From an uncultured Muribaculaceae bacterium (lineage in GTDB: Bacteria > Bacteroidota > Bacteroidia > Bacteroidales > Muribaculaceae), in NCBI GenBank assembly GCA_944321865.1, contig CALUMZ010000002.1, positions 1-64,000 on the forward strand: DNA of 64,000 nucleotides, in the 5' to 3' direction. The notes below the pieces were generated by a model. The model was not told the DNA's origin and did no database searches. It was given only the letters and a program-made list of their open reading frames with translations. The position numbers and the translations under genes were made by a program. This document shows positions 22,558 to 29,442 of the stretch, in pieces (positions within the stretch are counted from its first letter, which is position 1; each line of letters opens with the position of its first letter).

Positions 22558-22767
22558 GAGGGTGTATCAAAATTATCATTTCAATGTGGCAGTAGAGACG
22601 CAAAATTTTGCGTCTCTACAATCTGGCTGGATAAACTATTGATATTGAATGTTTTATATGTTGTTGCGAACATCGAGACGCGGCACGCCACGTCTCTACT
22701 CATGGCAAAATCGCATTTTGATACACCCTCTACTGCCACAATGGAATGATAATTTTGATACACCCTC
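22558..22767 (-). repeat. MITE-like composite palindromic element, copy 1
   Basis: A core of 173 bp (22558-22730) has perfect 16-bp terminal inverted repeats, GAGGGTGTATCAAAAT and its complement. A second right end continues to 22767, so that 22558-22597 and 22728-22767 are reverse complements in 38 of 40 positions. Inside are a 28-bp perfect palindrome with arms GTAGAGACGCAAAA (22592-22619) and a second GAGACG/CGTCTC hairpin (22675-22696). Read on the minus strand, it matches 26683-26850 nearly throughout. No transposase is encoded, so it would need help from elsewhere to move. Confidence 0.85.
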
Positions 22768-25753: not shown

Positions 25754-26680
25754 ATGAAAAGATTTCTGATTCAAGTCACCATATTCTCCCTCATCATCGC
25801 CGGCTTCCTTGCGGCAGGCGAATACGCCATACGCCAAATGCCCAACCCTTACAAATACAAGCACCGATGGATGCAGCAAAACGCCGGCAGCGTGGAAACA
25901 CTCATCTTGGGCAGCTCGCACACCTACTATGGCATCAATCCCGCAATGCTCCCCGGCAAGGCTTTCAACTTGGCCAACGTGTCACAAGACTACAAGTATG
26001 ACTTGCTCCTGCTCGAGCAATATGCCGACAGTTGCAAGTCGCTCCGCAACGTCATCATTCCTGTATCATATTTCTCGTTTTTCGACCCCGACCTTGAATG
26101 TAGCAATGAATGGTATTGCGCCATTTACTACAAGATATACATGGGCATCGACATCCACCCTGCACTGTCTAAATACAACTTTGAACTGTCGCACCTGTCG
26201 GTTTACAGTGGTAAAATAAGGAATTTGTTATCTTTCTCATACCCCGACATTGATTGTGATTCATTGGGATTTGGGAACAGATTCACCCTTGCCGACAGGC
26301 AGCAAGATTGGGAAAGCCTTTCTATTCAAGCCGTAAATCGCCACACTGCCAAGGATTGGAATAATGTCAGCGCCCAAGTCAGACGGTTGACCGAAATTAT
26401 CACCTTTTGCCAAAGCCGTTCAATCAATGTGATACTAATCACCACCCCCACTTGGCACAAATATTATGAAAACTTGGATCCACGCCAGTTGCAAAAGATG
26501 TACGACATCGTCCGCGACCTGCAAGCCCGGTATGGCGTGACATACATCGACTACCTGAATGATACGCGCTTCACCGCCGACGACTTCCACGATTGCGACC
26601 ACCTGTCAAGCGATGTCGGTGCAGTGAAATTCACCCGCATCTTTTGCCAAGACATATTCCGCGACACAATTGCCCGATAG
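25754..26680 (+). CDS. SGNH-like acyltransferase partner (AlgJ/DltD-type)
   Basis: The protein is 308 residues from the ATG at 25754; the frame is open further upstream but overlaps the MBOAT gene. It has an N-terminal membrane anchor (about 5-22), the nucleophile block 'LILGSSHTYYGINP' (Ser54 or Ser55 with His56) and a C-terminal Asp-x-x-His (Asp280, His283). This is the arrangement of AlgJ/AlgX/DltD-like proteins that complete O-acylation with MBOAT proteins. The repeat element at 26683 begins three bases after its stop codon. Confidence 0.8.
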   Translation: MKRFLIQVTIFSLIIAGFLAAGEYAIRQMPNPYKYKHRWMQQNAGSVETLILGSSHTYYGINPAMLPGKAFNLANVSQDYKYDLLLLEQYADSCKSLRNVIIPVSYFSFFDPDLECSNEWYCAIYYKIYMGIDIHPALSKYNFELSHLSVYSGKIRNLLSFSYPDIDCDSLGFGNRFTLADRQQDWESLSIQAVNRHTAKDWNNVSAQVRRLTEIITFCQSRSINVILITTPTWHKYYENLDPRQLQKMYDIVRDLQARYGVTYIDYLNDTRFTADDFHDCDHLSSDVGAVKFTRIFCQDIFRDTIAR

Positions 26681-26995
26681 AAGAGGGTGCAGCAAAATGC
26701 GATTTTATCCCCCCGTAGAGACGTGGCGTGCCGCGTCCCACAACAATAGCACATAAAACATTTAGTATCAATAGCTTACCAAACCGATTGTAGAGACGCA
26801 AAATTTTGCGTCTCTACTGCCACATTGAAATGATAATTTTGATACCCCCCTGCCACCCGACCGCAAAAGGGTACACCGTTACGAGGCAGTATCGCATTTT
26901 TTCAAAAGTTAAAACATCGCAAAATTTAAACAGGCTCTGAAAAATTTACTATCTTGCAATAAATAATTTACACCATTTATATAACACACACCAAC
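26681..26995. other. Intergenic region holding composite repeat copy 2
   Basis: No gene. It is filled by the repeat element to 26850. The remaining 145 bp before the YbjN-like gene is AT-rich, with TATCTTGC at about 26951, one base off a TAnnTTTG box. Confidence 0.6.
26683..26850 (+). repeat. MITE-like composite palindromic element, copy 2
   Basis: It corresponds to copy 1 (22558-22730) in reverse orientation. It runs from GAGGGTGCAGCAAAAT through GTAGAGACGTGGCGTGCCGC to the 28-bp palindrome with arms GTAGAGACGCAAAA, and ends ATTTTGATACC. Its left end is 2 bp past the stop of the SGNH gene, so it may also serve as that operon's 3' hairpin. Confidence 0.85.
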
Positions 26996-28345
26996 ATGAA
27001 GAATACACTACCTTTCATTCCTCCTGTGGAGGATATTAAGCATAAACCAATCCGCAGAGAGGTATATGAACAAAGCATCGACCTTTACGATGAGGGGAAA
27101 CATATCGAAGCCTTCCATCGATTGCTCGATTACCTTAACGATGAAATTCGCACAAAGTATGGCAACGAACAAGGCACGGAATTCCACATTCCGCACGGCT
27201 CGATTGTTTTAGACATATATATACACGATGATTCCATCCACATCGAAGCCGACTTCTTGAATATCCCCGAAAAAGGGCGCGTGGCCATGCTGCGGCAAGT
27301 TGCCGACCTCAACATCAACCGGCTGCTGCTTGCCGGTTTCGTCAAAGAGGGCGACAAGCTGAAAATGCGATACGTGACGCCGCTTGCACAGAGCCACCCA
27401 CACAAGATATACGGCGTGCTGCAAAACATCTGCTACGTGGGCGACAGGTATGACGATGAATTTTGCACGAAATTCAAGGCTACACGTTGTTATGAACCAC
27501 AAGTCACCCCTTATAATGCCGATGCCGTCACTCACGTGTATGAGGGACTGCAAACCGTGGGCAAAGCCACACTCGAGGCCATTGCCGAATACAATTCGAT
27601 GCGAGCCTATGGATACTCATGGAACGTCTTATGCACCACATTCTACCAAATAGCCTATTTTGCCAATCCTCAAGGGCAATTCTACAACGACCTTGAAAAG
27701 GCCATCGACGACATGGACGACGAGCGTCCCATCGAAGAGCTTGTTTCAAAAGGCACAGAGTACCTGAAACGGCTGCTTGCCACGCCCAAGGAAGATTTGG
27801 CCAAGGACCTTTACATAATCGACAAGCTCGTTTCCAACCGCCGCAGCGCATCGTTGCAGAACATTCAGGAATTGTTCAAAAGCGTATATGAAGATGCCAC
27901 CGAAGCCATGCAACAAAGCGACTTCGAGCGCAGCGCAGTGAGAATGCTTTATATCCTGTATGAAGCTTATTTCTACAACGACATTCCCGACGATATAAGT
28001 TCCATGCTGACTCACGCACTCAATGAGGCCGGAGGAATGCCGGTTGAAAAAGCTTCTGAAATCCTATACGACACTCTCGACGACATCATGGAAGGAAACA
28101 TATCGGCCAAAAGCCCGGCAGGAACACCTGCCTCGCCGATAAACGATGCGGCAGCGCAAATGATGCAACAGGCCTCGGCAGCAGCCGCCGAAATGCAAAA
28201 GAAGATGATGGAGAAAATGAGTGGCAGCGACATCGCCGAGCTGCAACAAAAAATGACCGAAGCCATGGCCCGGGGCGACATGCAAGAATACATGCGGCTT
28301 GCCGGAGAATTACAACAGAAAATGATGAACAACCTTTTTAATTAA
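26996..28345 (+). CDS. YbjN/T3SS-chaperone-like domain protein with helical tail
   Basis: 449 residues with no signal peptide or membrane segment. Residues about 30-165 show an alternating beta-beta-helix-beta pattern ('SIVLDIYIHDDSIHIEADFL', then 'KGRVAMLRQVADLNINRLLL', then 'GDKLKMRYVTPL') that resembles YbjN or type III secretion chaperone folds. The middle is helical. Residues about 380-449 are rich in Gln, Met and Ala and probably coiled ('AEMQKKMMEKM', 'ELQQKMTEAMARGDMQEYM'). The next gene starts 17 bp later, and its C-terminal domain seems to share this fold. Function unknown; the pair probably works together in the cytoplasm. Confidence 0.7.
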   Translation: MKNTLPFIPPVEDIKHKPIRREVYEQSIDLYDEGKHIEAFHRLLDYLNDEIRTKYGNEQGTEFHIPHGSIVLDIYIHDDSIHIEADFLNIPEKGRVAMLRQVADLNINRLLLAGFVKEGDKLKMRYVTPLAQSHPHKIYGVLQNICYVGDRYDDEFCTKFKATRCYEPQVTPYNADAVTHVYEGLQTVGKATLEAIAEYNSMRAYGYSWNVLCTTFYQIAYFANPQGQFYNDLEKAIDDMDDERPIEELVSKGTEYLKRLLATPKEDLAKDLYIIDKLVSNRRSASLQNIQELFKSVYEDATEAMQQSDFERSAVRMLYILYEAYFYNDIPDDISSMLTHALNEAGGMPVEKASEILYDTLDDIMEGNISAKSPAGTPASPINDAAAQMMQQASAAAAEMQKKMMEKMSGSDIAELQQKMTEAMARGDMQEYMRLAGELQQKMMNNLFN

Positions 28346-28362
28346 AAAAACACACGATTTCC

Positions 28363-29442
28363 ATGGAACATAACATATATAACTTAGTATTCAAGGTGAC
28401 ACACGCCGGAGGGTCGGGAAGTTGCTTTTACTTGAAATCATGCAACTTGTTTGTCACCAACTATCATGTCGTCGAAGGATTCCACTCTGTCGCCCTGCAC
28501 GATGTCAACCGCAATCCCTACCTCGCCCGGGTGGTGCTGGTAAATGCGGCCCTTGACATTGCCCTGTTGTCTGTCGACCATGATTTTTCATACCTGCCCG
28601 ACTTGACCATCGCTGCCGAGGATTCCCTTGGCATCGGCGGCAAGATTCGCGTGGCCGGCTACCCCTACGGAATGCCTTTCACCGTTACTGAAGGTACCGT
28701 CTCGGCTCCCAAGCAGCTCATGAACGGTCAATACTACATACAGACCGATGCCGCCGTCAATCCCGGCAATTCAGGTGGTCCCATATTCAACGACCACGAT
28801 GAAATTGTGGGGATAACGGTGAGCAAGTTCACCGATGCCGACAACATGGGGTTCGGTATACGCGTCGAGGCTCTGCGCAAAGTGCTTGAAGCAACCGACG
28901 GCTTAGACCGCAACACATTCCAAGTGCAATGCGAGAGTTGCGACGAGCTGATTTCAGAGCCTGATGCCTATTGCCCCTCGTGCGGCGAGGAACTGCCCGA
29001 AGGCATCTTCGACGAACGCCACGTATCCCCACTCACCGAGTTTTGCGAAAGCGCAATCGAGAAGATGGGAATCAACCCTATTCTCGCCCGCGACGGATAT
29101 GAAGCATGGCTCTTCCACAAGGGGAGTTCCGAAATACGCATCTTCGTGTGCAACCGCGCCTATCTTTTCATGGTGGCTCCAATAAACCTGCTTCCCAAGA
29201 AAGATGTCGAGAAAGTGCTCGACTACATGCTCAGCACCGACTTCACGCCCTACAAAATGGGTATCGAGGGGCGCCAGATATTCCTGATGTACCGCATTCA
29301 CCTCTCCGACATCACCGAGCAATACGAAGACACCATACGTCAAAACATCGTTGACTTCGCATTCAAAGCCGACGAAATGGACAACATGCTTGTAGAGCAA
29401 TTTGGTTGCGAGTTCTCGGCCTACACCAAGCAAGATGCCTGA
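28363..29442 (+). CDS. Intracellular trypsin-like serine protease with zinc ribbon and YbjN-like domain
   Basis: 359 residues, no signal peptide. Residues 1-180 form an S1-type protease: His35 ('VTNYHVVEG'), Asp65 ('LDIALL') and Ser137 ('NPGNSGGP') are all present, so it should be active. Residues 190-207 form a zinc ribbon (Cys190, Cys193, Cys204, Cys207). Residues about 225-350 have a beta-beta-helix-beta layout like the N-terminal domain of the preceding protein ('SEIRIFVCNRAYLFMVAP', 'QIFLMYRIHLSDI'). There is no PDZ domain, unlike DegP/HtrA. The 17-bp gap shows co-transcription. Substrate unknown. Confidence 0.8.
   Translation: MEHNIYNLVFKVTHAGGSGSCFYLKSCNLFVTNYHVVEGFHSVALHDVNRNPYLARVVLVNAALDIALLSVDHDFSYLPDLTIAAEDSLGIGGKIRVAGYPYGMPFTVTEGTVSAPKQLMNGQYYIQTDAAVNPGNSGGPIFNDHDEIVGITVSKFTDADNMGFGIRVEALRKVLEATDGLDRNTFQVQCESCDELISEPDAYCPSCGEELPEGIFDERHVSPLTEFCESAIEKMGINPILARDGYEAWLFHKGSSEIRIFVCNRAYLFMVAPINLLPKKDVEKVLDYMLSTDFTPYKMGIEGRQIFLMYRIHLSDITEQYEDTIRQNIVDFAFKADEMDNMLVEQFGCEFSAYTKQDA

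Follow-up and report, generated by a model that had tools for sequence, protein, structure and literature searches.

The described systems that come closest to the gene pair reported here are the HtrA/Deg/DegS proteases (S1C), the YbjN family (YbjN, AmyR, DR1245 and Tll0839) and the class I T3SS chaperones (CesT, SycN-YscB). The solved YbjN proteins and T3SS chaperones are single-domain proteins of ~120–165 aa, and for the YbjN relative DR1245 a joint action with peptidases encoded next to it had been suspected earlier (PMC3575483). Trypsin-like peptidases with a constant partner gene are also found in conflict systems (VMAP/Trypco and NucA-trypsin; eLife 2020 e52696), and the TY-Chap1 domain (PF22551) occurs in ADP-ribose-centred conflict systems (PMC9503650).

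In the window, i.e. the whole stretch of 64 000 nucleotides that was analysed, two open reading frames were found on the + strand, gene A (26996..28345, 449 aa) and gene B (28363..29442, 359 aa), which are separated by 17 bp as the initial annotation had described. Protein A is YbjN/T3SS-chaperone-like and consists of a helical N-cap, a TY-chaperone domain, a helical domain and a variable tail. Protein B shares the catalytic fold, the His-Asp-Ser triad and the GNSGG motif with HtrA/Deg/DegS, but it has no PDZ domain, signal peptide or membrane anchor, and carries a zinc ribbon and a YbjN-like domain. The latter domain, present in both A and B, has the element order of the YbjN family and the class I T3SS chaperones, and in A also their fold; instead of forming a protein by itself, it is here built into a helical protein of 449 aa and into a protease. 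A weak match to TY-Chap1 was obtained for 10/10 A proteins scanned (best 1.2e-5), and A of the window reached 14.1 bits, under the Pfam gathering cut-off of 27; unlike in the PF22551 conflict systems, no ADP-ribose genes were seen nearby. The pair resembles the trypsin-containing conflict systems in its peptidase and constant partner gene, but recurrent MoxR, vWA, NucA, EAD or STAND components are absent and the fold of the partner differs. No NCBIfam or PADLOC model was found for the A-B combination, and no paper on the pair was found in the open-access literature. The protease domain and the YbjN fold are each known; the combination of both in one protein and the pairing of sister domains are new. 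Apparently, A and B constitute a two-gene unit of some Bacteroidota that has so far gone undescribed.

Domain anatomy of the two proteins

The HtrA-type catalytic domain of B covers residues 1–180 (28363..28902; this and all features below are on the + strand). The catalytic residues H35, D65 and S137 were checked letter by letter and occur in the contexts NYHVV, LDIAL and GNSGGP, which confirmed the intact triad claimed initially, and the domain matched Trypsin_2 at 9.5e-26. The match of B to TIGR02037 was 2.8e-33, with all HtrA-family models matching B far below their own cut-offs. The AlphaFold model of B (mean pLDDT 92.5, pTM 0.88) was similar to Deg/HtrA proteases, with VIA Z of 22–25 and rmsd of ~2–3 Å over 171–200 residues at 24–34% identity. 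VIA-align of full-length B returned proteases only, which filled the list, so the absence of chaperones from it is uninformative.

The protease is followed, as had been proposed, by a zinc ribbon (28930..28983), whose Cys 190/193/204/207 form a CxxC...CxxC pattern (C190-C193...C204-C207). Over all B proteins, these four cysteines, E229, G245 and W249 were 99–100% conserved, and the triad 95–98%. As also stated in the initial annotation, neither a signal peptide nor a PDZ domain was detected in B: no PDZ model matched in the Pfam scan, and AlphaFold placed the zinc ribbon and an alpha/beta chaperone-like domain in that position. A signal-like hydrophobic run was absent from the N-termini of both A and B, and the homologues begin alike. 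Because the signal sequence is missing, B is probably cytosolic. The C-terminal YbjN/CesT-like domain of B (29029..29415, ~residues 223–351) was delimited by its AlphaFold element order and its homology to the domain of A.

For protein A, the AlphaFold model had a mean pLDDT of 89.9. Its YbjN/CesT-like domain (27167..27487, ~residues 58–164) was assigned from the AlphaFold elements at 36–160 and from VIA Z, and it is followed by the helical domain (27488..28111, ~residues 165–372), where pLDDT was mostly >90. Only weak structure matches were obtained for the helical domain (VIA Z ≤7.1), with no clear solved relative. The Gln/Met/Ala-rich tail (28112..28342, residues 373–449) consists of a linker and helices and is set behind a low-confidence stretch, the pLDDT of residues 371–410 being about 42–60. 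This tail had been proposed as a sensor or oligomeriser, and a key role of that kind was not supported: when homologues shorter than 410 aa were scored as lacking the tail, 26/115 were without it, including L006, L007 and L009 and two in the same genus, and the tail is therefore counted as dispensable.

The YbjN-like domain common to A and B

A strand-strand-helix-strand likeness between A and B had been suggested from the sequence. It was found to be real, if understated. The predicted folds of the two domains, whose comparison had been set beforehand, showed a longer and identical order in the AlphaFold models, namely a helix, three strands, a helix, two strands and a long helix at residues 36–160 of A and 223–347 of B. 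This is the alpha-3beta-alpha-2beta-alpha order described for the YbjN/chaperone fold (PMC10948618, PMC3575483). By VIA, the domain of A was aligned with 2plg (Z 12.7, rmsd 3.0, 129 aligned), SycN-YscB (1xkp; Z 12.2, rmsd 2.8, 119 aligned) and E. coli YbjN (6vu7; Z 9.9, rmsd 3.7, 129 aligned). The suggested YbjN-like fold of A and a chaperone-like domain common to both proteins were thus supported by AlphaFold, VIA and hhalign.

When the domain of A was compared with the C-terminal domain of B by hhalign using broad alignments, a probability of 97.7% and an E of 2e-12 over 104 columns were obtained; with the first ten sequences the probability was only 24%. The controls, for which profiles were reversed or the unrelated trypsin and helical parts were used, gave 0.2–0.6%. 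Because of this difference, the likeness of the two domains at the profile level is read as significant homology and not chance. HMMER cross-searches matched only the expected regions (62–163 of A, ~250–350 of B) and no unrelated ORF among 13156, and in whole-genome searches the A profile found the C-terminal part of B with E down to 5e-9. A motif in the last helix is common to both domains, which reads GDxYDDEF...FGA in A and KADxxDN...FGC or KADYYDDIL in B. The C-terminal domain of single B members gave weak Pfam matches to YbjN (1.1e-4), CesT (3.6e-4) and TY-Chap1 (4.7e-4), and a sequence search of the B domain against PDB chains gave no match. The A profile also retrieved stand-alone YbjN-like proteins of 146–175 aa from other Bacteroidota (L237–L242 and L274–L276).

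Pairing, distribution and the Arg100 split

Gene B was found directly behind A in about 90 non-redundant loci across Bacteroidota. Apart from contig ends (L069, L125, L147), the exceptions were two solo A genes (L103/L230 and L236), which belong to one family and one of which retains Arg100, and a single decayed remnant. In L203, B lies near the start of a contig and its A is on another contig of the same genome. Among 61 relatives, A was present in 10 genomes and was adjoined by a full-length B in 10/10, while the remaining genomes contained ordinary HtrA/DegP only. When genomes of 84,980 species were scanned, 71 loci could be used, which came from Muribaculaceae, Bacteroides, Alistipes, Odoribacter, Duncaniella and others; all are from named genomes, and B is directly behind A in every case in which the contig extends far enough. 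The distribution is patchy: in the order, 22/277 genomes contained full-length A (rows at E <1e-60, broad profile), and in the phylum 14/395. Between the A and B distance matrices, the correlation was 0.95 (Mantel p 0.001). The homologues of A and B therefore stay together, as the initial proposal of a two-gene system had implied, and the pairing is near-obligate. Together with the shared domain, this near-constant pairing suggests that one of the two proteins guides or activates its partner.

The decayed remnant, in Alistipes HAN006 (L186:8003-8204), contains the middle of A fused in frame to the last 34 codons of B, and is a natural loss event. The deletion joins GDRYDDE of A to DEMDN...FGCEFSVYTKQENI of B, at equivalent positions of the sister domains. 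At least two divergent copies of the pair were found per genome in G127 (L076/L077), G228 (L083/L105) and G385 (L078/L079), two dolphin-oral-type MAGs being among them.

The triad was intact in nearly all B proteins; it was lost in L071 and L073 (both QGS), L072 (NGY), L074 (HGF) and L270 (EDL), lineages which retained the four cysteines of the zinc ribbon, Trp249 and the chaperone domain. Residue 100 of A (codon 27293..27295) was Arg in 85/85 non-redundant A proteins with an active B; next to a dead B it was Lys or Glu (5/5), where active and dead were judged from the triad residues in the sequence. No other column of A was invariant alongside active B and yet changed in all of the dead cases; Lys137 (92%) was the only other separating column above 85%. 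In the AlphaFold model, Arg100 is located in helix 2 of the YbjN-like domain (residues 95–108), which corresponds by position to the dimer helix of AmyR; AmyR and YbjN dimerise via this helix and the next strand, which make up half of the dimer interface (PMC5398634). Paired A-B mutual information pointed to Arg100, but it was dominated by phylogeny and was not used as interface evidence.

In the tree of A, the active L271 and L272 were placed among the dead lineages, which fell into two groups (support 0.78); in the tree of B, by contrast, the dead lineages grouped together (0.99), perhaps via long branches. As read from these phylogenies, the Arg100 link hence reflects one loss of catalysis or two, and not five independent events. 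In the distant L064, L069, L071 and L073, the pair lies beside the same PKD/PorP-SprF-like gene cluster, with active and dead protease alike.

The surroundings of the pair were also inspected. In nine Bacteroides/Alistipes loci (L122, L125, L127, L129, L130, L132, L134, L139 and L147), the pair is immediately preceded by LemA and/or DUF3137 genes in the same orientation, and in some Alistipes a 218-aa lipoprotein-like gene lies between them and the pair; the LemA and DUF3137 genes hint at membrane or stress biology. In the window, two inverted copies of a ~100-bp dispersed repeat (22634-22740 and 26679-26774, 77% identical) flank an RsgA/MBOAT/DltD-like block, and several congeneric genomes contain dispersed shorter copies of this repeat. 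Most congeners have only A and B in common with the window, for which reason a mobile cassette was considered. It was dropped: in G000, G003 and G008, RsgA is no more than about 10 kb away from the pair, and a locally fluid region therefore suffices.

Possible mechanisms and biological meaning

Our preferred reading, which is held with modest confidence, is that of an HtrA-like protease that lacks a signal peptide and is gated by a chaperone; the PDZ domain would have been replaced in B, and A would serve as a chaperone or adaptor partner. In B, the zinc ribbon and the YbjN/type III-chaperone-like domain would stand in the place of the PDZ sensor behind an HtrA/Deg-type catalytic domain, and A would contribute the sister domain and the helical body. 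By analogy with the YbjN proteins (PMC5398634), the sister domains of A and B may heterodimerise via the helix-2/strand-4 face, and SycN-YscB (1xkp) is a precedent for a heterodimeric chaperone of this fold. A would bind exposed peptide segments of clients and hand them to B, and Arg100 may couple this binding to protease activation. Where B is dead, only a holdase or scaffold function would be left to the complex.

The near-obligate 1:1 pairing with A encoded first would also fit the order of an inhibitor or antidote, with A as a chaperone-like inhibitor or substrate that silences B until stress removes or cleaves A, and any contact of A with the active enzyme would explain why Arg100 is missing alongside a dead B. 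This explanation is considered fairly unlikely, since the YbjN-like domain of A is kept where no protease activity is left (L071–L074, L270), solo A genes occur, and no toxin-antitoxin-like mobility was seen. We regard as unlikely a general protein-quality or envelope-stress module for damaged membrane-protein clients, possibly acting with the LemA and DUF3137 membrane proteins, in which proteolysis is secondary: the nine loci above and the stress phenotypes to which YbjN-type proteins are tied (PMC5398634, PMC10948618) favour it, but the LemA/DUF3137 link is missing from most loci, the window included, and the triad is retained in nearly all B.

The initial annotation had considered stress response, regulated proteolysis and phage defence as possible roles; regulated proteolysis fits best, while no support for phage defence was obtained. 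A phage-defence or conflict system with the protease as effector, as in the trypsin-containing systems of Kaur et al. 2020, would agree with the patchy distribution, with the description of TY-Chap domains in predicted ADP-ribose conflict systems (PMC9503650) and with PADLOC matches of B to protease effectors. Nevertheless, these PADLOC matches concerned only the generic trypsin domain of B, and the ten near neighbours, checked for a location in defence islands, gave no credible defence matches apart from short sub-domain matches. The recurrent neighbours were housekeeping genes, with no recurrent NTPase, EAD or nuclease partner at the pair loci; searches of phage and viral collections (viral contigs) gave no match to the pair, and those of plasmids, where A only was searched, none to A. 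A defence role is thus very unlikely. A chance co-location of genes that have similar-fold domains and no common function is extremely improbable, as it is contradicted by the pairing in about 90 non-redundant loci and by the significant domain homology, and nothing beyond the sparse annotation of both families speaks for it.

The chaperone-gated protease reading can be carried further to a cytosolic protease that has two components and is independent of ATP; a heterodimer of YbjN-type chaperone domains would replace both the HtrA PDZ sensor and the AAA+ adaptor, Arg100 of A would be the activation switch, and some lineages would have become a pure chaperone. We offer this version only tentatively and consider it rather doubtful. 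If true, the regulation of an HtrA-like enzyme would require neither PDZ nor ATP and would probably take place in the cytosol. With its sharp split, Arg100 provides a one-residue handle on the coupling of A and B, and cultured type strains are among the gut Bacteroides and Alistipes that carry the pair. YbjN-like proteins have been linked to stress phenotypes, and their fold, fused here to a protease and accompanied by a partner of the same fold, would allow a direct test of the suspected role in chaperoning and proteolysis.
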